A stretch of DNA of 64,000 nt from Akkermansiaceae bacterium (GTDB lineage: Bacteria; Verrucomicrobiota; Verrucomicrobiia; Verrucomicrobiales; Akkermansiaceae), in contig CP059069.1 in assembly GCA_017798145.1 (NCBI GenBank), positions 2,899,226-2,963,225 on the forward strand, written 5' to 3'. Of the stretch, positions 8,111 to 36,238 are shown one piece after another. Under the pieces are notes generated by a model. It saw only the letters and a program-made list of their open reading frames with translations, had not been told where the DNA came from and ran no database searches. Every line of letters starts with the position of its first letter. Within the stretch, counting starts at the first letter, position 1. Position numbers and translations under genes: made by a program.

Positions 8111-9838
8111 ATGAACATGACCCCTCGGATCTTCACCCGGCTCGGCCTGACGGCTCTCCTGGCGTTTTCCCAACCCTGCCTGGCCGCCGAGGAAATCACC
8201 TACCCTGGCGAGGCCTTCGCCAAGCTCGACACCTTCGAGGGGCTCAACCTTGAGGATGCGGACAAGCTTTTCGCCAAGGCCGACTACAAGGGCGCCTACG
8301 CAGCCTACAAGGCCTACTCCTTCGAGTTCGCGAAGAGCAAAGCCCTGCCCTACGTCCTCCTCCGCATGGGCCGCTGCCTCCACAAGCTGGAGAAGCGCAA
8401 CGCCGCGATCACCGCCTATCAGGATGTGGTCGATTATTTCCCGGACGATGTCCGCAACGCGGCCGCCGCCCTATATCACATCGGCGAGTGCCATGGCGAA
8501 AACGGCGAGGAAGCCAAGCAGACCGCCACCTGGGCGCGCATGGTCAAGGACGACGGTTACGTCACCCAGCCGAATTCCGGCACCGCCCTCACCTTCCTCG
8601 GCACGGCCATGGAGAAGCTCGGGAAATTCGACGAGGCCGCGCAATACCACTGGCGCACCGCCGTCGCCTTCCTCAAAACCAACCCCAAGGCCGCCCAATC
8701 CGCACGCGCCGCCGTCCTCGCGCACCACGCCCTGCGCAGCCCGAACCATGACAAGCTCGCGGAATTCTACATCGCCGCCAGCGGCTTCGACGGCCAGGGC
8801 CGCGATACCGGCAAGCCGGAGGAGGACGCACGCTATTGGTCCGCCGTTTTCGACACGATCCTCAGGGCTTCCGGCGAGTCCCAGCTCCGCGAAAAAGCCG
8901 CCGTCTATTGGGGCGCGAAATTCGGAGACCGCCTCCCGGACAACGACCCCCTCCGCAAGCAGTGGGCCGATGTGCAGGCGGTCCACGAAAAGGACCGGGC
9001 AAGCTGGCTCGCGCGGATGGAAAAGCAGTTCGCCAGCAAGCCGGCCACACTCGACCGTGTGCTGCAGTGGTGCGAGTGGTTCAAGCCGGATCCCGACATG
9101 CGCTCGAAATTTTTCGCGAAGCAGTCCGCACCGTTCCTGGCCGCCCTGAAAACACCGGAGAAAATGGCCCTCATGAACCGGCTGCGCCAGCCGCTCGACA
9201 TGCACGCGGAGGCGCAGACCGTGATGCGCTCGGTGCGCACCGACGGCATGACCGACGAGGAGTTCAAGGACTACGCGATGTTCCTCGCCAACTACCAGCC
9301 GGAGGAAGAGGTGCTGCGCCTCATCTCACGGATGAAGGACAGGCTCTTCGCCACCAAGGCGCGCTACGACTACTACATTTCCCGTAGCTCCCGCAACCCT
9401 CCCTACATGGAGAAAGCCCTGGCCGAGATCCCGGAGCTCCTGAAATCCCCGAAATACGCGGAAGGCCTGCCCATCATCCAGGCACGGCTGTTGCAAAACC
9501 TCGGCCGCCACGAGGAGGCCATCAAGGCCTACAACGCCGCCAACGTGCAGCCGGAATCGACCTGGGGCGTCGCAGATTCCCAGACAGCGCTCAAGCAATA
9601 CGACCAGGCGGTCAAGACCGTCAAGGAGCTGGAGGCCGTCGGCGGCGCCGTCGCCGCGAGAGCCAGCCTCAAGGCCGCCGATATCTACCGCATCTCCGGC
9701 GACAAGGGCCGCGAGGTCACCCAGCTCCGCCAGGTTCTCAAGCGCTACCCGAAGAGCGGCGAGTCCAGCGAGGCCCACAACCGTCTCGAAAGCTACGGCG
9801 TCGCCCTCAGCGGCGGCGAGGCGGAAGCGGAGGACTGA
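8111..9838 (+). CDS. Secreted tetratricopeptide-repeat protein, first gene of the giant-TPR/ExbBD cluster
   Basis: 575 residues. A clear signal peptide (MNMTPRIFTRLGLTALLAFS, cleavage after CLAA) is followed almost entirely by helical TPR-like repeats, for example LPYVLLRMGRCLHKLEKRNA, ALYHIGECHGENGEEAKQTA and a final block of KAADIYRISGDKGREVTQLR type. The open frame extends upstream into the previous gene, but the signal peptide sets the start at 8111. It lies 24 nt before a second TPR gene and probably acts in the periplasm as a scaffold for the same system. No enzymatic motif is visible. No Shine-Dalgarno sequence is evident. Confidence 0.85.
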   Translation: MNMTPRIFTRLGLTALLAFSQPCLAAEEITYPGEAFAKLDTFEGLNLEDADKLFAKADYKGAYAAYKAYSFEFAKSKALPYVLLRMGRCLHKLEKRNAAITAYQDVVDYFPDDVRNAAAALYHIGECHGENGEEAKQTATWARMVKDDGYVTQPNSGTALTFLGTAMEKLGKFDEAAQYHWRTAVAFLKTNPKAAQSARAAVLAHHALRSPNHDKLAEFYIAASGFDGQGRDTGKPEEDARYWSAVFDTILRASGESQLREKAAVYWGAKFGDRLPDNDPLRKQWADVQAVHEKDRASWLARMEKQFASKPATLDRVLQWCEWFKPDPDMRSKFFAKQSAPFLAALKTPEKMALMNRLRQPLDMHAEAQTVMRSVRTDGMTDEEFKDYAMFLANYQPEEEVLRLISRMKDRLFATKARYDYYISRSSRNPPYMEKALAEIPELLKSPKYAEGLPIIQARLLQNLGRHEEAIKAYNAANVQPESTWGVADSQTALKQYDQAVKTVKELEAVGGAVAARASLKAADIYRISGDKGREVTQLRQVLKRYPKSGESSEAHNRLESYGVALSGGEAEAED

Positions 9839-9862
9839 AAACTCACCAACACCAAAGCCCGA

Positions 9863-12211
9863 ATGAAAAACAACTCTGCGATCAAAAACTCCGGCTTAGG
9901 CCTCCTATGGGTCTTCGGCTCCCTGGGCATTTCGTCGTTTTCCCCGGCGCAGGAAGAACCCGCCGCCGAGCCCCGCGCCCGCGTCTCCGCCGAGATCGAC
10001 CGCGAGGCGAAGCATCTCTACGACAAGGCCGTGGAGCTCATGGAATACAAGCAATACGAGCGCGGCCTCGCCATGCTCAACACCGTGGTGCGCGACAACC
10101 AGGGCACCCTCCTCGCCCACATGGCTCACATGGCGATGGGCAGGCATTTCCTCGAACAGCGCGACACCAAGGAAGCCCTCGGTCATTTCATGCTGCTCAC
10201 CCGCCTGCTCGCACCGGTGCCGGGCGAAAAGCAATCGGCGGAAGTCGAGGAGCTTTACCATGAGTCGCTCTTCCAGGCCGGGTTCAGCCAATACCAGGCC
10301 GGCCAATATGCCGCCGGTTTCCCGCTCTTCCGACAGCTCACCGAGGTAGCCGGCCGCACGAAATGGGCGAACATGGCCTACTTCTACATCGGCATGAGCC
10401 ACTACAACCTGAAGAACTGGAACAAGGCCATCGACTCCCTCTCCCTCGTCGGCACCGAGGTCGAGGACGCCTCCGGCGAATCCGGCGACGAGCTGGGCCG
10501 CATCGAGATCGGCCAGCGTTTCTACTCCAAGATCGAGGACGCCGACATCCCCATCATGCGCAAGCTCAACATCCCGGTCACCGCCGAGGTGAAGGTCAGC
10601 AGCGGCGATTCGGAAACAATCACCGGCGTGGCCGTCCCCGGAAAGCCCAACGAAATGCTCGCTTCCGCGCCCACCATCCTCGGCGATCCCAAGCCCGGCG
10701 ACGGCGTCCTCCAGATGGTCGGCGGTGACACCCTCACCGTCACCTACATCGACGAGAGCACGCTCGACGGCCAGAAGGGCATCAAGCGCACCGGCCAGGT
10801 TCGCGCCGTCAGCACCGGCACGGTCGGGTTTTTCCTCGGAGATTACTCCACCCCGGCCTACATCGCCTACCCCGGCCAGCCGCAGGTCGTCATGCTCCGC
10901 GATGCGGATCTCGATAAATCCCCGCAGGCGGAAACCCTCACCCTCACCGTCACCTCCCGCTACAAGGTCGAGGCCAAGGAAGCCGCCGAGTCCGATGAAA
11001 TGTTAGACATCTTCGCCCTTGAGGATGAGCAAAAGGACGTCTGGAAAGACCGCGACAGCGTCACCGTGCAGCTAACAGAAACTGGCGAAGGCCCACAGAT
11101 CCGCACCGGAGCATTTGCCGGAAGGATACAGCTCGCACCCATCGCGGATGGCGTTGAGCCGGTTGCCACAGACAACGTCCTGAGCTGCGACGAGCTCGAC
11201 GAACTTGTCGTCCGCTACACGGATGAAGTGCATCTCTACGGGGATGAACCGCGTGAAAGCGAGGCGAAGATCAAGGTCTCCGGCTCCGTGAACTCCGGCG
11301 TCACCGCAGACCAGTACGTCGTTTTCGAGGAGCTCCTGAAAGCCCGCAAAAGCTCGGTCGAGGCGGAAGCGCTCGTCGGCCTCGGAGACATCTACAAGGA
11401 CATGGGCCTCGACCAGCGCGCCGCCATGCGTGCCAAGGAAGCCCTCGACAAGGTCGATCCAATCATCGTCAACCGCGCCAAGCTCCCCGGTGATCTCGTC
11501 GAGGCCGCCTTCAAGCTCAAGTGGGAGGGCGAGCTGCTCAAAGACGATTTCGATGCCGCCACCGCCACCTGCCTCGCCTTCAACCGCCTCTACCCCGAGT
11601 CCGTCCTCGCCGACCAGGCGCTCATGACCCTCGGCCGCAGCCTCACCGACAGCGGCGAATACGAACGCGCCGTCGAGGTCTATGGCCGCGTCCTCCAGCT
11701 GGAAAATCCCATTTCCGGAGCCGAGGCGCAGTTCCGCATCGGCGAGGCCTTGCAGAAGGAGGCGGAGGAAATCACCGAAGCCTCCGACGAGACAAACAGC
11801 AAGTGGGGCAGGGCCGGCCTGAGCAAGGAAACCGCCCTGCAGAACCGCATGAGCGCCTCGATCCAGGCATACCGCAAGACCTACGAGACCTATCCGGAAA
11901 GCTCCTTCGCCGCCGAGGCGCTTGGCCGCGTCGTCCGCCACTACGTGGACACCGAGGATTTCGCCCAAGCCGCCGATCTCCTCGAAAGCGTCTTCAACGA
12001 CTACCCCGACGCCGCCTTCCTCGATGAGATGCTCATGCTCTGGGCCAACGTCGGCTTCCGCATGGGCGACACCGAAACCGCCAAGGCAAAGCTCCAGCAG
12101 CTAGTCTTCGACTATCCTTCTAGTGGTTTGGTTGCCGAAGCGCAGAAAAAACTCGCCGGCCTGCAGGCGGAGGCAGGCACGCCAGCAAATACGGAAGGGA
12201 CAGGGGAATGA
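9863..12211 (+). CDS. Secreted TPR protein with central beta-rich insert
   Basis: 782 residues. Signal peptide (start MKNNSAIKNSGLGLLWVFGS), N-terminal TPR-like helices up to about residue 230, then a central non-helical region and a second TPR array from about residue 500 to the end. The central region contains RDADLDKSPQAETLTLTV (about residue 350) and LTETGEG...TGAFAGRI (about residue 405). These are the same paired motifs found three times in each giant protein downstream, so this looks like a shorter relative with one module. It also has SGDSETITGV and GDPKPGDGVLQMVGGDTL segments like those of the giants. The stop overlaps the next start by ATGA, implying translational coupling. Confidence 0.82.
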   Translation: MKNNSAIKNSGLGLLWVFGSLGISSFSPAQEEPAAEPRARVSAEIDREAKHLYDKAVELMEYKQYERGLAMLNTVVRDNQGTLLAHMAHMAMGRHFLEQRDTKEALGHFMLLTRLLAPVPGEKQSAEVEELYHESLFQAGFSQYQAGQYAAGFPLFRQLTEVAGRTKWANMAYFYIGMSHYNLKNWNKAIDSLSLVGTEVEDASGESGDELGRIEIGQRFYSKIEDADIPIMRKLNIPVTAEVKVSSGDSETITGVAVPGKPNEMLASAPTILGDPKPGDGVLQMVGGDTLTVTYIDESTLDGQKGIKRTGQVRAVSTGTVGFFLGDYSTPAYIAYPGQPQVVMLRDADLDKSPQAETLTLTVTSRYKVEAKEAAESDEMLDIFALEDEQKDVWKDRDSVTVQLTETGEGPQIRTGAFAGRIQLAPIADGVEPVATDNVLSCDELDELVVRYTDEVHLYGDEPRESEAKIKVSGSVNSGVTADQYVVFEELLKARKSSVEAEALVGLGDIYKDMGLDQRAAMRAKEALDKVDPIIVNRAKLPGDLVEAAFKLKWEGELLKDDFDAATATCLAFNRLYPESVLADQALMTLGRSLTDSGEYERAVEVYGRVLQLENPISGAEAQFRIGEALQKEAEEITEASDETNSKWGRAGLSKETALQNRMSASIQAYRKTYETYPESSFAAEALGRVVRHYVDTEDFAQAADLLESVFNDYPDAAFLDEMLMLWANVGFRMGDTETAKAKLQQLVFDYPSSGLVAEAQKKLAGLQAEAGTPANTEGTGE

Positions 12212-15200
12212 CGAAACACCCAATGACCAAAACATCCAGGGCTGGTTTGCCAGGAACCGTTGGCCTTGAAGGGCGGGGCTTGGCAGGACTTCGTGCAGCG
12301 GCGGCACGGCCCCTCGTTTTCGCGTCGCTATTGCTCACGGCCAACGCATCCTTGGCCGCCGGCTTCGACGAGCAGCGCGCCACCATCTCCGCCTCCCCCG
12401 CGACCCAGCCGGAGGCCGCCATCCTATCCCTCCTGAAATCCGGCATCGAGGAAGCCAAGCCGGCCCAAGCCATCGCCGAGGCGGAGAAATGGCTGCGCCA
12501 AAACCTTCCGAAAGACGCGATGCTCCTCTTCCACGCCGCACGCGCCGCCGAGCTCAGCGGCGATGCCCCCGGCGCCGCCGCGCTCTACGAACAATTCCTC
12601 CGCAAGGCGGATCCAACGGCCACGGAGACCGGCCAGGCCATCATCGCCGTCCACTCGCTTTTCCGCGACCAGCTCAACGATCCCGGCGCCGCCTATTCGT
12701 TCAACCGCAGCAACGGCGACCGCCTCGCCACAAACACGACCGCCCGCCAGTTCGACGCATGGTTCCTGAATGAGGCCGCCACCCGCAAGGACGTGATCGC
12801 CGTCGCCAACCGCCTCCACGCCATCGCCAAGGCCGGCATCCCCGCCGATCTGTGGGTCACCTCGTACGAGCGCCATTTGCGCTGGCTGCTAGCGGAGTCG
12901 GAAGTCTATTGCGAGCAGCCCGGTGTCGCCCCATCCACCGACGAATCCGTTGCCGCCGGCAAGCAGCTCGCCAATGCCGCCATGTCCTTCAACGAGGAGC
13001 TTGCCCTGCGCCTCGATTGGGCGGTCTCCGTCCGCGCCTACAACCTCGCAAAAATCGCCGACCAAAACCCCGCACCTCCCCTCGCCGAGGCGAAAGCCCT
13101 GCTCGCGAAATTCCCGCACCACGCCGCACTTGTCCAGAACGGCTGGGCTGGCGGTGGCAACGGGCAACACTACCGCAACGACCCCGCGAAATACTGGCCG
13201 CACGAATCCGATGCCAAGATGGCTCCCATCGTCGGGGCCGCCGCGAAACTCAACCCCCTCGATCTCGCCGACCTCATGGCCACCTGGCGCAACGGATATT
13301 TCAGCGACAGGGTCGTGCGCCCGCTCGCGGTGAAATCGGTGCGCGATTTCCTGGCCGCCAAGCCGGACGCAACCAACTCCCGCACCGGCCTCCTGCTTTC
13401 CGAAAAACCATGGAACGAGCTCACCCCCGCCGAGGCCGCCGCACTCGCCCCGAAGTGCGCAGCACTTGCCGATCCGGAAGCGTCCCTCATCCGCGCTGTG
13501 GCCGCAGGCGGTGAGGCGAAGGATCTCGAAAAAATGATCGCCGCCCTCCTCGGCCCGGAGTCATGGAGACTGGGAGCCGCCGAGCTGGATGGCCGCTCCG
13601 CCGACCAGCTCTGGCACTACGCCGGACGCCCCGGTGCCAACCAGGTGCGCGATGCCAAGATCGCGGAAAGCAAGGCGCTCGCCGCGCAAGTCAAAGCCGC
13701 CGCCCTCAAGAAGGATGCCCCCGCGCCGCAGAGGCTCGCTCAGTTCACGAAGCTCTGGGCAGATTACAAATCCCCCCAGCCGAAGATCCCCGCTGTCGTC
13801 TCACGCCTCAGGTCCGCCCTGCTCATCACCCCGGAGGCCATGCCGGAATTGCTCAAGGATCGCAGTGTCGACGCCCGGCTCCTTGCCAGGAATGCAATCG
13901 CCGAGGGCATCGCCGGGCCGGAAAAAATTTGGACTGATCTCGAGATCGGCAGGATGAACCTTTCCAAATACGAGCCTTGGATCCAGGCGCTCGCCGATCG
14001 GCGTGCAGGCCGCAGCTTGAGCGAACTCAAAAAGCGCAATCCTGAGAAATATGTGCCACACCCGCTTGAGCCGGTGTTGCGCGAATCCGTCGCCACCGGG
14101 CTCAAGCAGAACAGCCTCGATCCATGGCAGCTGATCGCATGGGTCAACATGCAATACCCGGAGGACAACGCCGCACAGATCTCGCTTGCACAGGAAATCG
14201 CGAAATCCCCTGCCTGGAAAACGCTCAACTTCGAGGCCCGCTTCGCCCTGCGCGAGTGGTTCGGGAAATCCGTCGCCTCACCCGGCGAGCTTGGGTGGCT
14301 CAGCGCCGCAGACCCGGCGCTGGTTTGCAAGGATCTCCTTGCCCTGACGAAAGAGTCCGATGCTGCCTCCGCCGTCACCGCACTCACCAAGGCGATTGAT
14401 GGCATCGGGAAATCTCCGATCCGCATGGAGGTGAACGCAGCGCAGCAAATCGCAAGCCTGGACGCAGCCGTTTTCTCCGACCCCAAGGTCTTCGCCTTGA
14501 TCCTCGGGATTGCGGAATACATCCCGGAAACCAACGAGGGCAATGAGCTGTTCAAGCGCGTCTTCGCACAGGTGCGGGAGCTGCGCGACCCGGTCATGAT
14601 CCAGCAGACGGCCAGCATCATCTGGCCCTACGTCAGCGAGCGGGAGCCACGTTCTCAGTTCGCGCCCATGACGGAGTTCATCGAATCCCTGATGGATGAG
14701 CACCCCAATACGGCCTACGCCCTCGCCCGCAGGGGCGTTGACTCCCTCACCCGCGCCCGCGACAGCTATGGTTTCGAGCCCAGGAAGAATATCACCGGGG
14801 TGAAAGCGCAGATGGGCAAGTCGGCCATGCAGCTGGGCTTGGTTACCATCCCGGTCGCGAAGAACCACCCCGCCTATCCGGTTTACCAATCGCAGGGCGA
14901 TTGGCTGATGGGCAACGAGGACAGCGCATGGGCTCTTCTCGACGAGAACTGGGACTCCTTCCTTCCCGTTTACCGCGAGCTCACCGTCCCCTTCCTGAAG
15001 TGGATACTCCAGCGCACGATCTACGGCCGCGACGAGGAGCGGCAGGAAACCCTCATCAAAGCCCTCCTCGGCTGGGCCGGTGAGGCCGGCAGCCCGCTCA
15101 CCCCGCTTGAAAAAGCGGAGTTCGACATCGCCTACGGTGACATCGCCATGCAGCGCGGCCAGCTCCGCCAAGCTCACGAGATCTACGCCCGTGCCCAGAC

Positions 15201-18200
15201 CAACGAAGCCTATGCGGAGCTTTCCATCCGCCACCAGGCCGCCCTCCGCAAGGCCGCCGCCGAGCGCATCGCCAGGAACTTCGACGGCGCACTCCAGACG
15301 CTCAACGACCTCGAGCTCGAGCGCATTCCCGAGATCTGGACCGAGATCCGCTATGCCCGCGCCGAGGTTTATTACGACATGGAGGAATTCGACGACGCCA
15401 AGGACGATATCGACTCCATCCTCTCCCGCGAGCCGAACCATGCGGATTCGAAAATCCTGTTGGGTAAAGTCCAGCTCAAGCGCCAGAAACTCATGGAGGC
15501 CACCGAGGTCGAGCTTGGCTCCGCCGCCAGCCAGAAGACGCTTTTCCCCGGCGAGAAACTGAAAGTCACCCTCGTCGATCCCACCCTCGCCGTCTCCGGC
15601 GCAGGCACCGAGATCGAGGTCGTCGTATGGGCCACCTCCGGCGACAAGGAACAGTTTTTCCTCCGCCAGTTCGGGGACCAGAAAACGAAATTCCGCGGCG
15701 AGGTGCCTACCGCCCTCGGCGCCCCCGCGCCCGGCGACAATATCCTCCAGGTCATCGGCGACGACGAGGTCTTCTACGCCTACTCCGAGCGTTTCCGGGA
15801 AAAGATGAACAACATCGCGGAGAAACGCGGCGGCCCGATCACGGTTGCCTCGGATGCGATCCTCATGGCCTCCGCGAGAAAACTCCTCACCGAAGCCGAG
15901 CAGCGCACCGCCGACATGCAGGCGACGATGGACGCGATCAAGGGCAAGGTGTCCGGCGATGTCACCGCCGCCGCCAGGGCGGAAATGGCGGCCAAGTCGC
16001 TGAGCGCCGAGGCGCGCAAGGAAGGCGGCGGCATTTCCGAGGAAGAACTCGGCCGCTACCTGACGGATGTCGCCAAGCCCGGCAACCCCATCCACGTCCG
16101 CGTCATCGACCCCGACCGCAGCCGCACCGGGGAAATCGACGAGCTCACGGTCAGCGTCAGCAGTTCCAGCGGCGATTCCGTTTCCCAGGTCACCCTCAGG
16201 GAAACGGGCACCCACAGCGGATGGTTCGAGGGCAGCATCCCCACCACCGGCGCGCAGGCACTCGCCTTCGCCAAGGACTCCGAACCGGGCCGCAACCCGA
16301 ACATGGTCATCAGCCCGGCGGCGGACACCTACCCGGCATGGCGCCCCGTCGCCGGTCAGGAAGCCCCGGATTTCCGCATCGATCTCAACGACAACAGCGC
16401 GCTCGGCGAGATGACGATCACCGCCAGGGAAAAGGGAGCCGCCCTGAAATCCTTCATGCTCCAGACCGGCATGAACGACGGCGACATGACAACCGTCGCC
16501 GTTTTCCCGAGGGAGATGATCGCCCCGAAAAGCCCATGGGCACCCTCCGTTACCGTGATGAACGACGCGGACTCACATCACAACCGCGACGCCCGGTCGG
16601 TTTACGACATCCATGAGATACGCGAGCACATGGAGCGCGGCTGGATCACCCAGAAATTCCCGGCAGGCATCGCCGAAAACGTCGCCGGCCCCTCGCAGGC
16701 CATGACCGGATCGATCCCCGGCAAGGTCAAGTGGCAGCGCGAAGGCCGCCACCACAATTCCCACGTGATCTACCGCTTCCGCGGATACTTTTACGAGCGC
16801 AGCGATGTGGTTCGGCGCTTCAAGCTTGAGCTCGGCAATTACCAGGTTCCCAAAGGCACCCATCCATCGGTCTCCAATCCCCCCCAATTCATGCTGGCGG
16901 TGAACGGCCGCCCGATCACCAACCCGGAAATGCCGAACCGCCTGGAAGGCGAAGCGGAACTCCGCCCCGGCCTCCACTCCTTCGAAATCTGGGCCACCGG
17001 ATGGGATTGCGCGATCGGGTTCGGGCGCAGCATCAAGCTGCTTGCAAACCTGGAGGACGCCGAAACCCTGGTCGATTGCCCGGACGCGTTCTTCGATCCC
17101 ACCACTTTCCCCGAGGGCACCCTCGACCAGCGCAACAGCCCGGCCACCATCACCGCAAACGGCGATGGAACCGAATTCAAGGTCGCCTTCGCGCCGGATT
17201 CCCGCGCACGCTTGCTGCGCCTGGTGTTCCTCGATAACGAGGGCAAGGTGCCCGCCCTCAACAAGCTGGCCCTCACCAACCCGGAAGGGAAAGCCATCCT
17301 GCCGGTTGCAGAGGATTTCGCCGAGCTCAACAAGAACGACACGCTTGAGATGCTCACCGGCGACAAGATCGCCGTCCGCTACGTGGACGACCGTTTTGTC
17401 ACCAAGGCCAAGGAGCGCCAGGAGCGCTCGCTCAGCGTTTCTTTCACCAACGCCTACGCGGAGTTCGCCGATATGAAGCCGCGCTTCGACAGCCGCCTGG
17501 GCGAGGACAAGCCTTACTACGAGAAACTACTACGTTTCCAGTATGACAAGCCCCTCAGCCTCGCCGTCCACGATGCGGACATGGATGTCTCGGTGCAGCC
17601 GGACAAGGTCAAGGTGAAGGTCGGTGGCCGCGAGTTCGAGGCCACCGAGACAGGCGACTCCACCGGCGTCTTCGAGCTGGTCGTCACCCCCGTTTCCGGA
17701 ACGGCGACGGGAAACCAGGTCCAGGTGGCCGAGGGCGGGACCATCACCGCCAGCTACACGGACCAGGAAAACAACCGCCCCGGCGTCCCGACGGAGCGCA
17801 TCGCCACCATAGCCCATGCCGTTTTCACCGCACCACAGATCAAGCTTTCCCATGCCACCGTAGCACCCGCCGAGGGCGAGGCATGGCGGACCCTCATCCA
17901 TGGCTTCGAGCGCCGGACTTACATGACTGAAGAGAAACCGGATCTCGCCAGCGAGGCAGTCCGCCCGCGTTGGCTCGTGGAGAACAGGATGGTGGCCTCG
18001 TCCCAGCCACCCGAAGGTGGGATCGAGGCGGTGCTTGGCCGCAGGATGTATCTGGAACTCATCGTCCCCCATCTCGCCCTGGGCACTTCATCCGATGTCA
18101 CGGTCTATGCCCAGGCCGATTCCGGCCGCGCGCGCGCTGCCGCATCAGCCGGAGGCTTCGACATTTCCGTGCCGGGCACCATCGCCCTCACCGCCACGAC

Positions 18201-26914: not shown

Positions 26915-26926
26915 CCATACCCACAC

Positions 26927-27568: not shown

Positions 27569-27585
27569 TGGATCATAAATTTAAC

Positions 27586-27680: not shown

Positions 27681-27720
27681 AAAAGGATTCTGGGTTGTCC
27701 TCAAATCTGACATTCAATCC

Positions 27721-28089
27721 ATGCTCACCAACGACAGCGAGATAACCGAACTCATAATCGGCGCAGCGATGAAAATTCTCAACACTCTCAAGTCCGGTCT
27801 CGATGAAAAGCTCTATGAACGAGCTCTCATTATAGAGTTAGCCAAGCAAGGCCTCACCTGTGATCAGCAGAAAAACTTCCCTGTTCACTATGATGGACAA
27901 CACATCGGCACCTTGATCCCAGACCTCGTGGTAAATGAACGGGTCATCGCAGACCCGAAAGTTGTCACCGCCTTCACGGACACCCATATTTCCTAGATGT
28001 TAGGCTACTTGAATATCACCGGTCTTAGAACCGCCCTACTCCTCAATTTCAAACACGCCAAACTTCAGATCAAACGCGTCTCTATCTGA
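27721..28089 (+). pseudogene. GxxExxY family protein gene with in-frame amber stop
   Basis: The frame starts MLTNDSEITELIIGAAMKIL and has the family pattern GLDEKLYERAL (G-x2-E-x2-Y), then a conserved QQKNFPVHYDG segment. At 27994 a TAG interrupts the frame after FTDTHIS; the same frame continues as MLGYLNITGLRTALLLNF...LQIKRVSI to TGA at 28087. Other family members have a Gln at this kind of position (...Q-x-L-NYL...), so a single CAG-to-TAG change explains it. Without the stop the product would be 122 residues, a normal length. The usual conserved Val-Glu in VIVELK also reads VIADPK, a second sign of decay. Function of the family is not established. Confidence 0.8.
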
Positions 28090-28100
28090 ACCAACAGTAT

Positions 28101-28137
28101 CCATCCGTGCCCATCCGTGAAATCCGTGGTTAAAAAT
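28101..28137 (-). repeat. Right inverted end of the GxxExxY cassette
   Basis: On the minus strand it reads AACCACGGATTTCACGGATG followed by GGCACGGATGG: the same core as the left array, in opposite orientation. It ends 18 nt before the first exbD start. Confidence 0.8.
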
Positions 28138-28154
28138 AACCGCAACCCCAGCCC

Positions 28155-28568
28155 ATGAGAAAGAAATACAGCAAGGAAAAGAAGCATCGCAGCGGCGAGA
28201 TCCCCACGGGATCTTTCTCCGATATTGCGTTCCTTCTGATCATCTATTTCCTCGTGGCGACGACTCTCGTAAAAGTGAAAACCATCACCGCCGACCTCCC
28301 GTCTGGTGAGAAATCCGCACAGACGGAATCCGAAAAAACCCCCATCGTGAACCTGCGCGGCGCTGAAATTTTCCTGAATGACAAGAAGCTAACGATGGAC
28401 GAGCTGGAGGATCGGCTTGCGGCGCTGGAGCTTGGCGCCAAGGAACCCTCGGATCGGGTTGTGATGCTGGAGTCCGCGAAGGGCACCCCGTACGGAAATT
28501 ACTTCCAGGCACTCGCCGCGATCAGCGCGAACGAGGGTGTGGTCGCCATCGTGGAGGAGGGGAACTGA
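28155..28568 (+). CDS. exbD: ExbD/TolR-type biopolymer transport protein, first copy
   Basis: 137 residues: short basic cytosolic N-terminus, one membrane helix, periplasmic domain. The helix begins SFSDIAFLLIIYFLV, with the proton-carrying Asp at residue 23, the essential residue of the family. The periplasmic part ends NYFQALAAISANEGVVAIVE, matching the ExbD fold's last strand. It is 2 nt upstream of a second exbD. ExbD works as a dimer in the ExbB pentamer pore; two different genes suggest a heterodimer, which is inference. Confidence 0.92.
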   Translation: MRKKYSKEKKHRSGEIPTGSFSDIAFLLIIYFLVATTLVKVKTITADLPSGEKSAQTESEKTPIVNLRGAEIFLNDKKLTMDELEDRLAALELGAKEPSDRVVMLESAKGTPYGNYFQALAAISANEGVVAIVEEGN

Positions 28569-28570
28569 CC

Positions 28571-28990
28571 ATGAGACGCTCCCGCAAAAAGAGAAGGAAA
28601 CCAATTCCCGTGCCGATCGCGAGCATGGGCGATATCGCGTTCCTTCTCATCATCTTCTTCCTGGTGTGCAGCGAGGTTTCCAAGGAAAAGAGCAATCTCC
28701 AGGTGGAGCTGCCGCTTTCACAGCATGTCGAAAAAATGAAGGCGCAGGTGGTGGCGCGGGTGGCCGTCGATGAAACCGGCGTGATCTATTTCGACGGCGA
28801 AGAGGTGGACAGCGCGAAGGACGTGGAGTGGGGCGTGCGGGCTTTGCTGACGAACACCGTCGCCGACGAGCAGAGGCATGTGCAGTTCAAGTGCGACAGC
28901 GCCCTGCCCAAGGAAATTTTCGAGCCTGTCATCCAGGCCATCGCCGCGGCCGGCGGCATCATAGAGGCGGTCGGCGAGCTCGACCAATGA
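28571..28990 (+). CDS. exbD: ExbD/TolR-type biopolymer transport protein, second copy
   Basis: 139 residues. Highly basic start (MRRSRKKRRKP), then SMGDIAFLLIIFFLV with the functional Asp at residue 21 and a periplasmic domain (DETGVIYFDGEEV ... IFEPVIQAIAAAGGIIEAVGE). It differs from the first copy over most of its length, so the pair is old. It is followed after 19 nt by the TonB-like gene. Paired, non-identical ExbD genes behind one ExbB are common in bacterial Ton-like loci. Confidence 0.92.
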   Translation: MRRSRKKRRKPIPVPIASMGDIAFLLIIFFLVCSEVSKEKSNLQVELPLSQHVEKMKAQVVARVAVDETGVIYFDGEEVDSAKDVEWGVRALLTNTVADEQRHVQFKCDSALPKEIFEPVIQAIAAAGGIIEAVGELDQ

Positions 28991-29009
28991 ACAAGAACCC
29001 GAACAATCA

Positions 29010-29453
29010 ATGACAACGACAAAGAGCGAACAAACAACCCCCGCCGAGCTGCTGGAGACCTTCAAGGGACGAAGCCTCAAATCCATCGTGATCTTCACCG
29101 TGGCGGTGCACCTCGTGGTGCTGGTCGCGACGAGTGCATCCTACTTTTTCAAATCCGGGGGCGAGGACACCTCGAAGCTCGGCGAGAGCGAGCGGATGGA
29201 CATCGCGGTGCGCGAGGCCACGGCCTCCCTGCGCGAGATCGCGGAGAAACACGGCGTGAAGGCGCAGGATCTCGGCAGCCGTTTCGCCGACGGGAAACCG
29301 AAGCCCGCCGCCTCGCCCGCGCCCGTGGAGGCTCCCGCCGATACGGAACCCGCCGCCCCGGAGCCGGAGAAATCAGCCATCGAGAAGGATATCGAGAAAG
29401 TCGAGCCCGGCCCGGCGCTGCCGAGCGTGGAGGACGAGGATCTTTTCAAATAA
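29010..29453 (+). CDS. TonB-like single-pass protein lacking a TonB C-terminal domain
   Basis: 147 residues. A cytosolic tail of about 22 residues leads into one helix (about 23-46, SIVIFTVAVHLVVLVATSAS). The helix has Thr30 and His34 spaced like Ser16 and His20 of E. coli TonB, the pair through which ExbB/ExbD act. After it come a charged helical part and a Pro/Ala/Glu-rich stretch (KPKPAASPAPVEAPAD... EPEKS), as in the TonB spacer. The protein then stops at EDEDLFK; no C-terminal receptor-binding domain is present. Known: S-x3-H is a TonB signature. Inferred: this protein transmits motion from the neighbouring ExbB/ExbD to a periplasmic partner. Could also be a simple stator-associated protein. 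Confidence 0.75.
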   Translation: MTTTKSEQTTPAELLETFKGRSLKSIVIFTVAVHLVVLVATSASYFFKSGGEDTSKLGESERMDIAVREATASLREIAEKHGVKAQDLGSRFADGKPKPAASPAPVEAPADTEPAAPEPEKSAIEKDIEKVEPGPALPSVEDEDLFK

Positions 29454-29471
29454 GCGCCTCGGAAAGCAAGC

Positions 29472-31088
29472 ATGAGCCCCAACATACGAGCAGAGATCCC
29501 CGCAGTGAGGGTTGATGAGATCCCTACGGATCCATCCACCTTCAAGGCTCGGCTTGTCAGTGCCGCGGTGCTCATGCTCACCGGGCTTGCCGCCGCCGCA
29601 TGGGCGTGGGGCCCGGATGTTCTTGCCGCTTTCCTTTCCCGCAACGGCGAGATCGCCATCCTGTTTTCCGGCAACAATACAAGCGCCTCCCTAAATCTCT
29701 GCATCCAGTCATTCGGCATTCTCGCCGCCATCTGCGCGGTGGCCGGAGGGATGGGCTTCTGGCGGAACCGCAGCACCTACCACCTGCTCCGCATCGCGCT
29801 GCTGGCGGTTTATCTGGTCGTGGCGTTTTACGTTTTCACCGTCTGGCAGGGCGTGTTCGCCATCCTCAGGGAAGAGATCGCTGTCGATGGCTCGAAGCAG
29901 GACAAGGCCACCACCATCCTGCTCTGGTGGGGCGCCTGCTGGCCCGCGTTGGCCGTGGCGGGTTATGCCGCATGGTGCCATGTGATGCTCCGCAGCCGCT
30001 CGGTGTTCGCCGCCTTTTCCGGGAAGACCGGAGATGCCATGGAGGGCGACCGCTTGCTTGAGGATGTTCGCACCCATGGCCGCGACCCGCGCCACCGCCG
30101 CAGCCTCTACGCAAGTATCCTGACCCACCTGCTCATCATCGTCATCATCCCTTACATCCTCAGCCTCGGCGGATGTGTGGAGGCCTACAAGGTGCCTCAG
30201 GGCAGCGGAAATCCGGTGGTTGCCATGGTGAAAATGGTGCAGCCGAAGAAGAAAAAGAAGCAGACCCTCACTCTGCGCCCAAACTCAGCGATCATCTTCG
30301 ACCAGCCGGATCTCGACAACACCGAGGTCGATCAGGTCATGGAGCAGAAAACCCAGGTGACCTACGAGGCATCCGCCAATGCGAAGGCCGGGAAAATGGG
30401 CAAGGGCGGCGGCACCAAAGGCGGCTGGCCGGAGGGGATGGAGGATTACAAGATCCGCTTCATCCGCCTTGAGCATTCCGGCGCGGGCTGGGATGACGGC
30501 ATGGATCAAACCGATGCGGACATCAATTTCCTCCGCGCCTTCGCACAGTCCACAGGCTTCAGGAAAATCGCCAGCAAGGGCGAGAGCCACTCCATCGCCC
30601 TCCTGCGGAAGTATCCTGACGACGGCTTCCCTCCCTTCGTCTATCTAACAGGAAACTCCGACATGGGCCGCATCAGCTCCGAGGATGCGAAGACGTTGCG
30701 CGAGTATTGCCTGAAAGGAGGGATGCTCATCGCGGATGCGGGCAGTGCGCGTTTCCACCAGTCTTTCCTGCACTTCATGCGCCAGGTGTTCCCGGACAAG
30801 CCGCTGCTCGACATCGCCGACGACGACATGATCTATCAGCTCCCCTACGGCTTCCCGGACGGCGCACCCGCCTTCTGGGGCCATGGCGGCAGGCGCGCGC
30901 TCGGCGTGAAACACGAAGGCCGCTGGTGCGTCTTCTACCACCCCGGTGATATGAACGACGCATGGAAATCCCAGGGCTACACCGATGTGTCGCCCGAGAT
31001 GCGCGAGGCCGCCATGAACCTCGGCATCAACCTGGTTTACTACTCCTTCAACCAGTGGAATGACGCGATTTCCAAGAAGAAGAAATGA
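29472..31088 (+). CDS. Multi-TM DUF4159 protein with TonB-like helix
   Basis: 538 residues. The N-terminal 200 residues hold about four membrane helices (VSAAVLMLTGLAAAAWAW, then FGILAAICAVAGGMGFW, LLRIALLAVYLVVAFYVF and others). A further helix follows a basic stretch and reads SLYASILTHLLIIVIIPYIL, with Ser215 and His219 in the TonB S-x3-H spacing. A polybasic QPKKKKKQ segment links it to the C-terminal DUF4159 domain (about 320-530: IRFIRLEHSGAGWDDGM, PPFVYLTGNSDM, LKGGMLIADAG, NLVYYSFNQW), a glutamine-amidotransferase-like fold of unknown role. The end overlaps the next gene by ATGA. Likely a second energy-coupled component of the cluster. Confidence 0.82.
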   Translation: MSPNIRAEIPAVRVDEIPTDPSTFKARLVSAAVLMLTGLAAAAWAWGPDVLAAFLSRNGEIAILFSGNNTSASLNLCIQSFGILAAICAVAGGMGFWRNRSTYHLLRIALLAVYLVVAFYVFTVWQGVFAILREEIAVDGSKQDKATTILLWWGACWPALAVAGYAAWCHVMLRSRSVFAAFSGKTGDAMEGDRLLEDVRTHGRDPRHRRSLYASILTHLLIIVIIPYILSLGGCVEAYKVPQGSGNPVVAMVKMVQPKKKKKQTLTLRPNSAIIFDQPDLDNTEVDQVMEQKTQVTYEASANAKAGKMGKGGGTKGGWPEGMEDYKIRFIRLEHSGAGWDDGMDQTDADINFLRAFAQSTGFRKIASKGESHSIALLRKYPDDGFPPFVYLTGNSDMGRISSEDAKTLREYCLKGGMLIADAGSARFHQSFLHFMRQVFPDKPLLDIADDDMIYQLPYGFPDGAPAFWGHGGRRALGVKHEGRWCVFYHPGDMNDAWKSQGYTDVSPEMREAAMNLGINLVYYSFNQWNDAISKKKK

Positions 31089-32245
31089 TGAACTGGAACT
31101 CCTTCAACATCCTAGGCTACCTCAGCGTGCTCCTCTGGATCGCGATGCCTGTGCTGTGGCTGCTCCACTCCCGGATGCGCCCGCGCCGCTGGCTATGCCA
31201 CATCGCCCTTCTGTTAGGAATCGCGGCCCTGGTGCTTGCGAAGCTGAATTCCGAAAACCACGTGAACCGCATCCAGCCCGATCGCACCGAGCTGATCGCC
31301 GCCAAGGAAGCCGAGCAGGAGGCGAAGCGCCAGGCCGCGATCGACAGCCGTGGCGATGAGGTGGCGGACATCCGCTTCGCCGAGGACGGCGCGGACGATT
31401 TCATGGATCGCGCGGGCATGGACGAGGCGGATCTGAAATACATGGACAAGCAACTGGGCAAGCCCGGCGAGCCCGCCTGGAAACAGGGCAAGCGCGAGCG
31501 CAGCGGCGGCACGGCGGATGGCGATGATCTCGAAAGCGCGATCGGCGCCAACGAGAAGCGCGAGGATCTCGCCACCGAGGGCTTGGAAGGCGTCGTGGAG
31601 GAGGAGCCGATCACGATGAACGCGAAGGATCTCGTTCTGGCCAACCGGCTTGATCTTTTCAACATTAGGGCGATACAGGCCCTGCTGCTCATCGGGATTG
31701 CCATCGTCATCGCCGACTACCTCCGCCGCGCGAATTCCTACCGCGAGGCCTACCTGCCGCTGCCGCTTCCCAGCGGTTGGCTGAACTCGCTGACCCCGCA
31801 GGAAGCCGTTTTCACAAGGCCGGAGCCTGCCCGCCGCAGCATCATCCAGGAGCTTTCGTGGATGGCGAAACGTGGCGACGCCTTCCTCTACCTCACCGAA
31901 GATCCGGCGAAAGCGGCGCAGCTTCCCGACTCGTTCCAAAGCCTCGGGAAAATGGATGTCATCCGCCTCGGCGGGGATATGGAGTTGGGCGACAGCTTTG
32001 TTTTCGAGGCGCTCTGGTTCGGACGGAGCTCCTTCGCGGTCGGCTCCGCAACACGCGCCAAGACGATGCTCGGCACTTTCCTCAAAATCCTGGCCGAGCG
32101 CCGCGAGACCCGTTCCCGCGTCGCCCAGACCGTCCACATCGTCTGGGATCTCAATGAGCCGGTCCCGGAAAACATTCGCAATGGCTTCGCCACCCTCGGC
32201 CGCGATGCCGGCCTGTCTCTCTTCATTTCCAATCCGCCCAGATAA
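31085..32245 (+). CDS. Uncharacterised membrane protein of the cluster
   Basis: 386 residues. Two N-terminal helices (about 8-30 and 38-55) precede a long, charged, acidic extracytoplasmic or cytosolic segment. A third helix follows near residue 200 (AIQALLLIGIAIVIADYL), and then a soluble C-terminal domain of about 170 residues (SIIQELSWMAKRGDAFLYLT ... VHIVWDLNEPVP) with alternating strands and helices. No family recognised. It overlaps the DUF4159 gene by ATGA and lies 15 nt before the PDZ/HEAT gene, so it belongs to the same transcription unit. The topology makes it a candidate partner of the DUF4159 protein. Confidence 0.78.
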   Translation: MMNWNSFNILGYLSVLLWIAMPVLWLLHSRMRPRRWLCHIALLLGIAALVLAKLNSENHVNRIQPDRTELIAAKEAEQEAKRQAAIDSRGDEVADIRFAEDGADDFMDRAGMDEADLKYMDKQLGKPGEPAWKQGKRERSGGTADGDDLESAIGANEKREDLATEGLEGVVEEEPITMNAKDLVLANRLDLFNIRAIQALLLIGIAIVIADYLRRANSYREAYLPLPLPSGWLNSLTPQEAVFTRPEPARRSIIQELSWMAKRGDAFLYLTEDPAKAAQLPDSFQSLGKMDVIRLGGDMELGDSFVFEALWFGRSSFAVGSATRAKTMLGTFLKILAERRETRSRVAQTVHIVWDLNEPVPENIRNGFATLGRDAGLSLFISNPPR

Positions 32246-32260
32246 GAAACCTCATCCACC

Positions 32261-35200
32261 ATGAAATCCCTCGCATTCTCCGCCGCCCTTCTAACAGCGA
32301 TTCTCGCCTTGCCCGCCGCCGCCGAGGAGCGCACCCACACCCAGGAGGAGATGGACGCGCTCCTCAGGGACGGCGACCTTGGCGCCGAGGAAGTGGAGCG
32401 CCCGGCAAACCTCCCTGATCTCACCAAGGGCGAGCTCATCCCCCCTGCAAAGAAGAAGGAGCCGAAGCCATGGTATTACGGGCCGACCGGGATCGTGGGA
32501 TTGATGGTCGGTGATTTCGTAGGGGATCAGATCCAGGTGCAGAGCACGCTCAATGGCTCCCCCGCCCATGGGAAATTCATGTGGGGCGATGTGATCACCG
32601 GAATGAACGGGAAAAAGTTCGAGCCCGGCGGGCACCTTGGTATCCTGATTGGCAATGCGATCATCGAGGCCGAGAAAGAGGAGAACGGCGGCAAGATCAC
32701 CTTCCAGGTTTGGCGCGACAAGAACTACGCCGCGCGCTTCGGCAAGCAGGATGTCGCTGGGGTCGATGTGGACAAGCTCTTCGACGAGGTTCGCGATGAC
32801 AATTCGCTCTACGACTGGAAGCCCGAGGAGGAGCGCACCAAGGAAGTCACCAAGCTGGGCTTCGACAAGTTTCCCATCGTCCCGGAGACATTCGAGGTGG
32901 AGCTGAAGCTGCGCACCATGCCCGCCTACAGCGATACTGCTCCCTACGATTGCCCGAAGACGCAGCAGATCCTCGAGGACGCATGGAAGGTGCTGGAGAA
33001 AAAATTCGTCGCAGACCCGAAGGATCCGCGCAGCGGCAAGGGCGGCATCATCGAGGCGATGGCATTGGTCGCATCCGGCAAGCCGGAGCACCGCAAGATC
33101 GTGCATGACTGGGTGCGCGGCCCGAACTCGCCATGGCGTCCACCCACGGAGCCCCCCGGAGCGATGTTCGAGCCCGGCTACAAGGGCTACAAGGGCTACC
33201 AGAGCTGGCATCATGGTTTCGGCGGGCTCTATTGCGCACTCTATTACGATGCCACCGGCGATGACTTCGTCCTCCCCGCCCTCCGCAAATACGCCATCGA
33301 CACCGCCATGGGCCAGAGCGGCGGCGGCAGCTGGGGGCACACCTTCGCCTACCCGTCCTTCAACGGCGGCGAGCTGCACAGGATGAACCCCGGATACGGC
33401 GCGCTCAACGCCGCCGGGAACCGCTGTTTCTTCCTCATCACACTTGCACAGAAGCTTGGCATCAAGGATCCGGAAATCGATGCCGCCGTGATCCGGGCGC
33501 AGAAATTTTTCAGCTCATTCATCGACCAGGGAGCCCTGCCCTACGGCGATCACGGAGCAGCCGGCACCGATGACAGCAACGGCAAGAACACCGGCATCGC
33601 CTTCTCCCTGAAACTCCTGGGGGACAAATACGGCGCGAAATATTTCTCGCAGATGTCCACCCACGCCTCCTTCACCCCGCGCGGCGGGCACGCCCACGAC
33701 TACCACACCCAATGGTCTGCCTGGGGAGCCACGCTGTGCGGCCCCGAGGGGCGCATCGCCGCGGAGCGCAACATGCGCTGGAGCCGCACGCTTGCACGAA
33801 TGTTCGACGGCAGCTTCGTCTATCACTCGCCCGGCGGCTACAGCGCGCTGCGCGATCCGACCGCCACCCAGGTCTTCAACCAGGCCGTCATTTACAAACA
33901 GACCCTCATCACCGGCAAGGACGAGGACAAGGAGCTGTGGACGACCGAGCGCGAGATGAAGCAGTTGCTCACCAGCGCGCGCGGACAGCTCAACGACCCT
34001 GCCCTCATCGCGCGTTCCGGAAAGCCATGGCAGGAGCGCAGCACCGATGAGATCTTCGACCTGCTCGACATCTTCTTTCCGAAAGCGCGCGGAGCCTACG
34101 CAGATGAACTGGGCAAGCGCTACCAGGCCGGCGAAAAGGAAATCCTGCCCCGACTCGTGGAGTTGCTCGGCAGCGATGAGCCGCGCCTCCGCGAGGGCGC
34201 CTGCCGCGGCCTGCTCGCCTGCGGTAATGATGCCGTGTTGGAAAACCTTTCCAAACTCACCAAGCTCCTCGACGACCCCAAGGACTTCGTGCGCATCAGC
34301 GCGGTCAATGTGATCTCGAAGAGCACCGAGACCGAGGAAACCCAGCTCGCGATGCTGGAAGCCACGGCCGCGCCGCAGCAGGCGGTCGCGCCAAACAGCG
34401 TCCGAAACGCCACCCAAGTTCCGCTTTTCGGCGATGACAGCCCGCTCGCGAAATCGCCCTTCGAGGCCGGCTTCGACGAGGATCTCGTTTACCGCGCCTT
34501 GGAAAAACTGATTGAGCTCGATCCCGTCGGCAAGGGTTTCATCGCTTCCAGAAACGGCGTATGGGACAAGGAAACCGTCGTCAGGCTCGCCGGGCCGCTG
34601 ACCTTCGCGGCCGAGGAGGAACAGATCGGGGACCAGATGTTCGCCAACCGCGCTGCGCCGGCGAGGGAGTTGCTCCGCAAGTTCGGATACCGCGAGGCTT
34701 ATGAGGCGTCCGCTCACCTGTTGCGCAAAAAGGCGGGCGTACCGCGCGACATCCGCGCCAAGGTCACGTTCAAGGATCCGCTGATCGACCCGCCCATCGT
34801 TCTGGGCAGTCCGGGCGCTTTCAGGGACTTTGCGGGCTTCCTCAGAACCGTCCTGACCGACGACCCGAACCTCTCGGTCACGACCAAGGACGAGAGAAAC
34901 AAATGGGTGGAGGTGACAACCAACCTCGACACGCTCCTTGCCAGGATCGAGGCGGCGAAACCCGTGCCCAATCTACCCAGCATCGCCGATGAGGCGGGCT
35001 CGTTTTTTCGGAAAAACCTGGATGCGGCCGACGGCACGGGGGCGAAGCTGAAACTCTGCCGAGCCACCCTCGCCGATCCAGACCGCAAGGATTACTTCCG
35101 CAAGATGGCGGCGATGGATTACCTCGCCGAGACCCTCGGGCCGGATGCGTTGGAGGATTTCGCGCCGTATCTGAGCCATCCTTACTGGAGGCTGCGCGAG

Positions 35201-36238
35201 CACAGCCGCAAGCTAGCCCCCGGACTCGTTGCGGGCAGCGGAAACCTGCTCAACGACCTGTTTGCGAAAACCAAGGATCCGCGCGCCGCCTCCGGCATCC
35301 TCGATACGCTCGCGCTCTGCAAGGTGGAGTCCGGCCTTTCCACCGCGAAGCAGGCGATGTCCCACGAAGAGCCGCTTGTCCGCCAATCCGCGATCCGTGC
35401 GACCATGGCCCTCGGGGGAAATGCGGTGATCCCGGAAGTCGTCGCCCACCTGAAGGCGTCAACTTCGAAGGAAGACCTGCGCGGCTGCGAGGAAGCGCTC
35501 GATCCACTCATCGGCGATCCCGCGTTCGATGCGGCCTTGCGCGACGCTCTGATCGCCATGCTTCCGGATGCCGAGCCATCCGCCCGGCCCATCGCTTACT
35601 ACCTCATTGCCCGCATCGGCGACGCGCCATCCATCGATGTGCTCAAAAAAGCCGCGCAGACCGACAGCCTAACGGAATTCGAGGAGATTTGCTACGCGCT
35701 CTCCTACTCTCCGAGCCGGGCTGCGGACAAGCTCATGCTCGAGCTCGCAGCCACGGACAAGCGCAGCGCGGAGATCGTCGGCGCCCATTCCGTCCGCCGC
35801 ATGGTCATCGGCCCCAAGGGCTATGGCGATGTCACGGTTGCCGAGAAAATGGATTTCGCCGAGGCGATGCTCAAGCTCGCGCTCGACAGGCAGCTCATCA
35901 CCCAACTCAGCCACATCCCGGAAGCCCGCGCCATGCGCGCCCTGATGTTCTGCCTTGAAAAGGGAGTGGAAAGCGCCGCCGGGAACCTCATCACCTGCGC
36001 CGAGGGCATGGGCAAGCTTTCCCCGGCCGATTCCGAAATCGCCGCCAAGGCGCTTCAGGATGTCATCGAGTACATCGAGGTCACCAGGCTACGGGGAGGC
36101 ATCCAGGCGCACATGAGCAAGGATGACAAATACGTCGAGTGGAAGGAGCTCCAGGCGCGTGCCGGGAAAGTCCTGCTCAGGATCCACAAACCCGGCGAGG
36201 CTCCCATCCCCGAGTTCGACACCCTGGAATTCGAATGA
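32261..36238 (+). CDS. Secreted PDZ/HEAT-repeat protein (DUF6288-like)
   Basis: 1325 residues. Signal peptide MKSLAFSAALLTAILALPAA with cleavage before EERTH. Residues about 65-160 look like a PDZ domain (GPTGIVGLMVGDFVGDQIQV, SPAHGKFMWGDVITGMNGKK). Residues about 240-580 form an alpha/alpha-barrel-like region with repeated Gly/His-rich turns (KGYQSWHHGFGGLYCALYYD, GQSGGGSWGHTFAYPSFNGG, TPRGGHAHDYHTQW), and the rest is HEAT-type helices. The PDZ plus barrel combination resembles DUF6288 proteins known from Planctomycetes and Verrucomicrobia; I could not check. Last gene of the cluster, followed by a hairpin and a convergent galK. A periplasmic quality-control or scaffold role is a guess. Confidence 0.78.
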   Translation: MKSLAFSAALLTAILALPAAAEERTHTQEEMDALLRDGDLGAEEVERPANLPDLTKGELIPPAKKKEPKPWYYGPTGIVGLMVGDFVGDQIQVQSTLNGSPAHGKFMWGDVITGMNGKKFEPGGHLGILIGNAIIEAEKEENGGKITFQVWRDKNYAARFGKQDVAGVDVDKLFDEVRDDNSLYDWKPEEERTKEVTKLGFDKFPIVPETFEVELKLRTMPAYSDTAPYDCPKTQQILEDAWKVLEKKFVADPKDPRSGKGGIIEAMALVASGKPEHRKIVHDWVRGPNSPWRPPTEPPGAMFEPGYKGYKGYQSWHHGFGGLYCALYYDATGDDFVLPALRKYAIDTAMGQSGGGSWGHTFAYPSFNGGELHRMNPGYGALNAAGNRCFFLITLAQKLGIKDPEIDAAVIRAQKFFSSFIDQGALPYGDHGAAGTDDSNGKNTGIAFSLKLLGDKYGAKYFSQMSTHASFTPRGGHAHDYHTQWSAWGATLCGPEGRIAAERNMRWSRTLARMFDGSFVYHSPGGYSALRDPTATQVFNQAVIYKQTLITGKDEDKELWTTEREMKQLLTSARGQLNDPALIARSGKPWQERSTDEIFDLLDIFFPKARGAYADELGKRYQAGEKEILPRLVELLGSDEPRLREGACRGLLACGNDAVLENLSKLTKLLDDPKDFVRISAVNVISKSTETEETQLAMLEATAAPQQAVAPNSVRNATQVPLFGDDSPLAKSPFEAGFDEDLVYRALEKLIELDPVGKGFIASRNGVWDKETVVRLAGPLTFAAEEEQIGDQMFANRAAPARELLRKFGYREAYEASAHLLRKKAGVPRDIRAKVTFKDPLIDPPIVLGSPGAFRDFAGFLRTVLTDDPNLSVTTKDERNKWVEVTTNLDTLLARIEAAKPVPNLPSIADEAGSFFRKNLDAADGTGAKLKLCRATLADPDRKDYFRKMAAMDYLAETLGPDALEDFAPYLSHPYWRLREHSRKLAPGLVAGSGNLLNDLFAKTKDPRAASGILDTLALCKVESGLSTAKQAMSHEEPLVRQSAIRATMALGGNAVIPEVVAHLKASTSKEDLRGCEEALDPLIGDPAFDAALRDALIAMLPDAEPSARPIAYYLIARIGDAPSIDVLKKAAQTDSLTEFEEICYALSYSPSRAADKLMLELAATDKRSAEIVGAHSVRRMVIGPKGYGDVTVAEKMDFAEAMLKLALDRQLITQLSHIPEARAMRALMFCLEKGVESAAGNLITCAEGMGKLSPADSEIAAKALQDVIEYIEVTRLRGGIQAHMSKDDKYVEWKELQARAGKVLLRIHKPGEAPIPEFDTLEFE

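Follow-up and report, generated by a model that had tools for sequence, protein, structure and literature searches.

A conserved gene cluster for an ExbB/ExbD motor, transducer-like membrane proteins and giant secreted proteins in Akkermansiaceae: a probable trans-envelope machine of PVC bacteria

We analyzed a window of 64,000 nucleotides from an Akkermansiaceae bacterium (assembly GCA_017798145.1, contig CP059069.1, positions 2,899,226 to 2,963,225), whose genome is a single contig of 4.39 Mb. Twelve genes on the plus strand span positions 8111-36238 of this window, in the order T1, T2, G1, G2, s, ExbB, ExbD1, ExbD2, TMsm, D4159, TM2 and HEAT, and one low-GC insert (27569-28154) interrupts them. 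Both observations agree with the original prediction, which was made from the DNA alone and proposed an undescribed, energy-coupled envelope machine. A Pfam scan covered 13 proteins of the cluster region, and NCBIfam models were used as well. Pfam backs the tetratricopeptide repeats (TPRs) in T1, T2, G1 and G2, as well as ExbB, both ExbD proteins, DUF4159, DUF6288 and the HEAT repeats. A promoter scan 5' of T1 found none.

The cluster begins with two secreted TPR proteins. T1 (8111-9838, 575 residues; TPR_6, 3.9e-12) starts at the ATG at 8111 with an N-terminus that, by eye, is like a signal peptide, and its orthologues in six relatives are 60-71% identical. T2 (9863-12211, 782 residues; TPR_6, 3.2e-15) has a stretch resembling the beta region of the giant secreted proteins that follow, G1 (12208-19917, 2569 residues) and its paralogue G2 (20013-26561, 2182 residues). 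G1 has a TPR-beta-TPR layout with a C-terminal YfiO/TPR match above cut-off, and orthologues in seven relatives with 56-65% identity. Two proteins of over 2200 residues had been expected; this is true of G1, while G2 falls short when its start is set, by eye, at the signal peptide (20013). The small conserved protein s (26558-26914, 118 residues) has no Pfam or NCBIfam family above cut-off; it precedes ExbB in type A and most type A' loci, two of the four types of related loci (A, A', B and C) discussed below. The motor is encoded by an ExbB/TolQ-type proton channel gene (26927-27568, 213 residues; PF01618, 1.9e-24) and by ExbD1 (28155-28568, 137 residues; PF02472, 9.3e-18) and ExbD2 (28571-28990, 139 residues; PF02472, 1e-15), which belong to the D1 and D2 lineages, respectively. 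TMsm (29010-29453, 147 residues), a putative minimal TonB-like transducer with no Pfam match, consists of one helix with T-x3-H, a Glu/Pro/Lys-rich linker and a C-terminal DEDLFK. In the membrane protein D4159 (29472-31088, 538 residues; PF13709, 2.7e-30), the last helix has S-x3-H and leads through a linker to a DUF4159 domain, presumably in the periplasm; the presence of this domain corrects the earlier description of the protein. TM2 (31085-32245, 386 residues) is a membrane protein of types A and A' with no Pfam or NCBIfam family above cut-off. The last gene, HEAT (32261-36238, 1325 residues), encodes a secreted protein and, among the loci of the DUF4159 profile search described below, is confined to type A. 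It had been called a PDZ/HEAT protein; the HEAT repeats are there (HEAT_2, 3.1e-19), the PDZ match is below cut-off (13.1 versus 23.2 bits), and the main domain, not named before, is DUF6288 (PF19805, 7.7e-83).

This arrangement recurs in other genomes. In a set of 59 related genomes including the host, which were searched with G1 and whose matched loci were then read, the type A cluster is found in eight (the host, G001, G004, G007, G013, G016, G024 and G044). Several of these loci end at contig edges, and genes first missed in G016, G044 and G004 were recovered as loci L108, L056 and L063. Type B, with the order T2, giant, ExbB, ExbD1, ExbD2, TMsm, D4159 and T1, occurs in G001, G007, G016, G021, G032, G046 and G054, some of these sets being incomplete at contig or stretch ends or having one part undetected. 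A DUF4159 profile run against the genomes of 84,980 species gave 216 relatives, of which the best 80 were kept as loci. ExbB is found in 65 of the 80, at least two ExbD matches in 69 and a giant in 59; where at least 3 kb upstream of D4159 is available (64 loci), the counts are 61 for ExbB, 61 for two ExbD and 57 for a giant. In type A', the fetched upstream parts place T1-T2-giant upstream of the motor, and a Phycisphaera-titled locus (L156 and L084) carries every type A gene, including two giants. Names of the Planctomycetes-Verrucomicrobia-Chlamydiae (PVC) group are borne by 75 of the 80 loci, and the other five have no phylum in the title. Because the other 136 of the 216 relatives fall outside these loci, a restriction to PVC bacteria is not proven. 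The order is kept in loci named Verrucomicrobiota, Kiritimatiellota, Lentisphaerota and Planctomycetota; species names of metagenome-assembled genomes, such as 'Akkermansia muciniphila', look like automatic labels. Since the same order is present in other genera and phyla, the clustering goes beyond chance. The scattering of genes in related genomes, which would have spoken against the original prediction, was not seen.

The residues expected of a proton motor are kept as well. T136 and T170 of ExbB are found in all 66 rows of the alignment, and the helix aspartate in 70 of 71 ExbD1 rows and 69 of 70 ExbD2 rows, with one gap in each. A MotA/ExbB channel with conserved threonines and ExbD/TolR partners with a membrane aspartate are the marks of 5:2 proton motors, and the predicted proteins appear to have them all. 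In a tree of 130 ExbD proteins (64 loci and the window, 65 rows each), D1 and D2 are split by one branch (support 100/93). Because the two lie on opposite sides of this branch, the pair seems to predate the divergence of types A, A', B and C, and with two old ExbD lineages the motor is probably heterodimeric, like AglRQS of Myxococcus. In a tree of 75 ExbB proteins, 67 cluster motors, including the host's own type B motor, are on one side of a branch (support 96/84), and seven other ExbB proteins of the host and a foreign one from L157 are on the other; this tree carries a long-branch warning and does not include three of the host's 12 ExbB matches. A Zorya-like or other defence motor was considered and rejected, as none of the seven proteins compared had a match in PADLOC at E of 0.01 or lower.

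From their sequences, TMsm and D4159 look like force transducers. An open reading frame (ORF) at the TMsm position was obtained in 64 of 70 loci. The helix histidine is present in 59 of these, and the five without it (L128, L130, L131, L132 and L134) are all type B. Every type A row (37 loci and the window) has [TS]-x3-H followed by a serine seven to nine places on, and all 38 rows have D[LI]F at their end, among the final nine residues, preceded by two acidic residues in 30 of them. This terminal motif is found nowhere else in the 6187 residues of the type A rows. Mean identity is 54% over the eight residues closing with the motif, versus 16% for the preceding 30-residue stretch; these identities are ungapped, which reduces the value for a variable-length linker. 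Types A', B and C have other short recurring end motifs, by eye. It seems that the folded end of a transducer is replaced in TMsm by a short terminal motif. For D4159, 54 of 81 rows have S-x3-H and a single row has A-x3-H; the remaining rows are 13 type C-like, seven type B-like and six without the region. The model of D4159 (predicted local distance difference test, pLDDT, 80.6; predicted template-modelling score, pTM, 0.50) shows a membrane part made of helices, a linker modelled with low confidence and one domain. The best match of this domain is Hoch_4089 (PDB code: 4i66; Z 22.5, root-mean-square deviation (rmsd) 1.8, 186 aligned). The next matches, to amidotransferase, ThuA and IFT52 folds, have Z scores of about 7 to 9, close to what the tool describes as common, and no von Willebrand factor A (vWA) fold is among the structural matches listed. 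In the open-licence literature, no paper was found on DUF4159, DUF6288, PF13709 or Hoch_4089.

The histidine of the transducer helices is shared with Ton (ExbBD-TonB), and it would be expected if the cluster were a nutrient importer of the TonB type, working with receptors whose genes lie elsewhere. We consider such an importer highly improbable, since TMsm lacks a TonB C-terminal domain by Pfam and since the other ExbB/ExbD sets of the genome could serve those receptors. Membership of Ton or Tol was rejected because the defining domains are missing from the 13 proteins: Pfam finds neither a TonB C-terminal domain nor a receptor, and no TolA, TolB or Pal domain. The original prediction had noted that a TonB-dependent receptor, TolB, Pal and OmpA are absent, and Pfam gives no match to them even at E up to 1.

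With Tol-Pal, the cluster has in common a TolQ/TolR-type motor and the CpoB-like TPR of T2. A system like Tol, maintaining the outer membrane or acting in division, would explain why the T2 C-terminus passes the NCBIfam model tol_pal_ybgF (93.7 versus a cut-off of 90.1 bits) and why TolQ is the best NCBIfam model for ExbB, though below cut-off (109.3 versus 221 bits). The distribution of the cluster argues otherwise. Across an evenly drawn sample of 288 genomes of the phylum, as a rule with five candidates scored per genome, the D4159 profile has a match in 92, with E below 1e-100 in 14 including the host. The matches in the other 78 are far weaker and are mostly the DUF4159 domain alone among the matches listed. 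With 14 of 288 genomes, the cluster is patchy and is thus an accessory trait, not a housekeeping one. Moreover, the domains that define Tol are lacking in the cluster, and four OmpA/Pal-type matches are located elsewhere in the genome. We therefore hold a Tol-like system to be very unlikely. The maintenance role in the original prediction has little support beyond the T2 match, given the patchiness and the folds of the giants.

These folds were examined in the middle 1060 residues of G2, which were modelled with pLDDT 84.8 and pTM 0.69. The best match of the model is an archaeal surface-layer (S-layer) protein of Nitrosopumilus (Foldseek E 2.3e-21; Z 18.1 and rmsd 4.8 with 220 aligned). Also among the best is CBM32, with Z 15.3 and rmsd 2.3 for 125 aligned residues spread over model residues 211-532, hence with an insertion. 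The giants thus appear to combine TPR regions with β-domains resembling those of the archaeal S-layer protein and CBM32. A search with their beta region also matches T2-type genes. In an alignment of 41 giants, two from the window, conservation is 0.56-0.68 in the stretch 841-1080 versus 0.45-0.52 in 1081-1280, which is the larger part of the lectin-like stretch, and this weaker conservation would fit a varying ligand. The S-layer match could also point to an engine that exports or builds a surface layer of giant proteins, as GldLM powers type IX secretion, and it would suit such an engine that giants and motor form one block. Nevertheless, no outer-membrane pore is found in the cluster by Pfam, and models of the type IX secretion system match T1 and T2 only through their TPRs and far below cut-off. 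Therefore, we regard this possibility as quite unlikely.

The Agl-Glt and Nfs systems of Myxococcus offer another comparison. As far as the cited table and text go, Agl-Glt has one ExbB, two ExbD, TPR proteins, a 4132-residue TPR protein and TonB-like proteins (PMC3169522 Table 1; PMC9389320). Here too, one ExbB is accompanied by two ExbD, and the cluster encodes several secreted TPR proteins, TonB-like membrane proteins and a TPR protein of giant size; this is a likeness of parts lists. Relative to what these sources give, the cluster differs in that its genes form one block, its giant has CBM32-like and S-layer-like folds, and TMsm is without the TonB C-terminal domain by Pfam. The shared parts (PMC3169522) and the patchy distribution would both fit gliding or surface movement of the Agl-Glt kind, in which adhesive giants would be pulled by the motor along the envelope or through it. 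We see this as rather unlikely, since the likeness is one of parts lists and Pfam reveals no outer-membrane part like GltH or GltK in the cluster.

The closest description that we found in the open-licence literature, where other papers were judged by title and the start of the abstract, is that of operons in PVC bacteria which combine a TPR gene, tolQ and two tolR with the gene of a vWA transducer and whose function is unknown (Williams-Jones 2025, PMC12204202). In the part of that account available to us, the TPR gene, tolQ and two different tolR lie ahead of a transducer with a motor histidine, and the same parts occur in the same arrangement here, also in PVC bacteria. The window and types A and A' have the S/T-x3-H part of the SHLS motif of that transducer, whereas type B and D4159 of type C lack it. 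The giants, the one-helix TMsm with its end motif, TM2 and DUF6288/HEAT are features of this cluster that do not appear in the same part of the account. The transducer fold is vWA there versus Hoch_4089-like for D4159, and the two families may not be identical. The cluster is of the same kind as these operons and probably overlaps them, so that the word 'undescribed' was only partly true. The proposal of an energy-coupled envelope machine, on the other hand, is borne out by the kept gene order and motor residues, the two transducer-like helices and the separate grouping of the cluster ExbB. The cluster is a more elaborate variant of a 5:2-motor trans-envelope machine. The new findings of most use are the constant pairing of two ExbD proteins, the hook-like transducer, and giants whose folds resemble an S-layer protein and CBM32.

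We suggest that the genes of the cluster specify a trans-envelope machine of PVC bacteria, driven by protons and with a glycan-handling role. This statement as a whole we judge to be somewhat probable; we are fairly confident of the architecture of the machine, and the glycan-handling role is put forward tentatively. The predicted parts, namely ExbB with two diverged ExbD, TMsm, D4159, secreted TPR proteins and giants, appear together across phyla. In the proposed mechanism, an ExbB5-ExbD1/ExbD2 motor would use proton flow to move both transducers through their membrane histidines. TMsm would be a TonB reduced to a helix, a flexible linker and a terminal docking peptide, which would most likely bind the TPR ends of T2 or of the giants. 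The giants may extend in the direction of the outer membrane, with the lectin-like domain as their glycan-binding part. The most likely job would then be to exert a pull, at the outer membrane, on giants that have bound glycan, serving either the import of large polysaccharides or adhesion and movement.

Several observations weigh against this proposal. The helix histidine is absent from all six type B TMsm and, within the related-genome set's own type B TMsm, is present in G046 only; it is also absent from D4159 in all seven type B rows and in the 13 type C-like rows. Therefore, a uniform TonB-like coupling is not shown. The type B set of the host is split, with T2 and the giant at about 0.85 Mb and the motor set at about 1.27 Mb, and four of the 64 loci (L096, L115, L116 and L119) have the motor set with no giant detected alongside. 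Carbohydrate binding by the giants is suggested by fold resemblance only, and the score of G2 against Pfam discoidin does not reach the cut-off (17.9 versus 28.2 bits). The Pfam scan and a lipoprotein pattern detect no outer-membrane barrel or clear lipoprotein in the cluster and thus show no route to the surface; the anchor pattern is present in one of 14 T1, none of nine T2, two of 15 giant and none of 33 HEAT rows. Furthermore, in the parts of the papers that we cite, TonB systems are credited in five Verrucomicrobiota without SusCD (PMC11980603), and TonB-dependent sets are listed for alginate products in Verrucomicrobiota (PMC13274419). Polysaccharide uptake may thus not need this machine.

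The low-GC insert (27569-28154, GC 0.478) separates ExbB from the first ExbD and is not part of the machine. It contains an ORF of the PDDEXK_3 (GxxExxY-type) family at 27721-27996 (PF13366, 2.6e-23), 9-10-base tandem repeats and a 23-base inverted repeat. Gaps of more than 150 bases at the ExbB-ExbD junction are found, besides the window, only in L056, L059, L080 and L111, the last of which is a missed ExbD. The junction is a repeated landing site, with the PDDEXK_3 cassette in the window and a different ORF in L056 (8113-8651) and L059 (5273-5709), which we take to be four-helix-bundle-like. The right ends of the L056 insert and the window insert nearly match. The 15-mer at the left end of the window insert (27580) has one other copy in the genome, at C1:2453477-2453491 on the minus strand, with zero mismatches where one was allowed.

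The genes 3' of the block vary between loci, as judged by eye from 112 ORFs or more of 41 loci. Sulfatase-like ORFs occur among them, and no function is drawn from this; these phyla carry many sulfatases. In L060 (10452-14682) and L063 (13422-17601), the HEAT gene is directly followed by what are presumably MoxR-, DUF58- and BatA-like genes, which is not general. The T2 gene of type B is preceded by a protein that we assume to be DUF1501-like with a twin-arginine-like start (L021, 5560-6816; L043, 2719-3984; L045, 14113-15369; L042, 16299-17585; L155, from 2914), in several Verrucomicrobiota and one Phycisphaera-titled genome. The cluster is also carried by Verrucomicrobiaceae bacterium E54 (L061) and by Rubritalea profundi SAORIC-165 (L062 and L159); in the assembly of the latter, T2 and both giants are in two or more frames, owing to sequencing error or decay. 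Seven of the 64 loci are without a giant; the three of these that lack a motor set (L095, L097 and L114) are lone DUF4159 genes. They are close in sequence to the cluster DUF4159 domain with no motor beside them, and the same record series also gave the clusters L056, L059 and L108.

A bolder version of our proposal, which we consider unlikely as it stands, is that the cluster is the missing energised handler of glycans at the outer membrane of PVC bacteria, free of SusCD, in which a heterodimeric ExbD motor and a hook-peptide TonB would pull polysaccharide-bound giants into the periplasm. According to the part of the source available to us, chondroitin sulphate uptake in Planctomycetes proceeds through an 'analogous but unknown mechanism' (PMC5520146). 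A motor with lectin-like giants would be a concrete candidate for this uptake. To our knowledge, few proton-driven envelope motors have a known job, namely Ton, Tol, Agl, Gld and flagella, and such motors shape thinking on how bacteria push force through the cell wall. Here, a block of this kind is kept across loci of four PVC phyla beside proteins of over 2000 residues.

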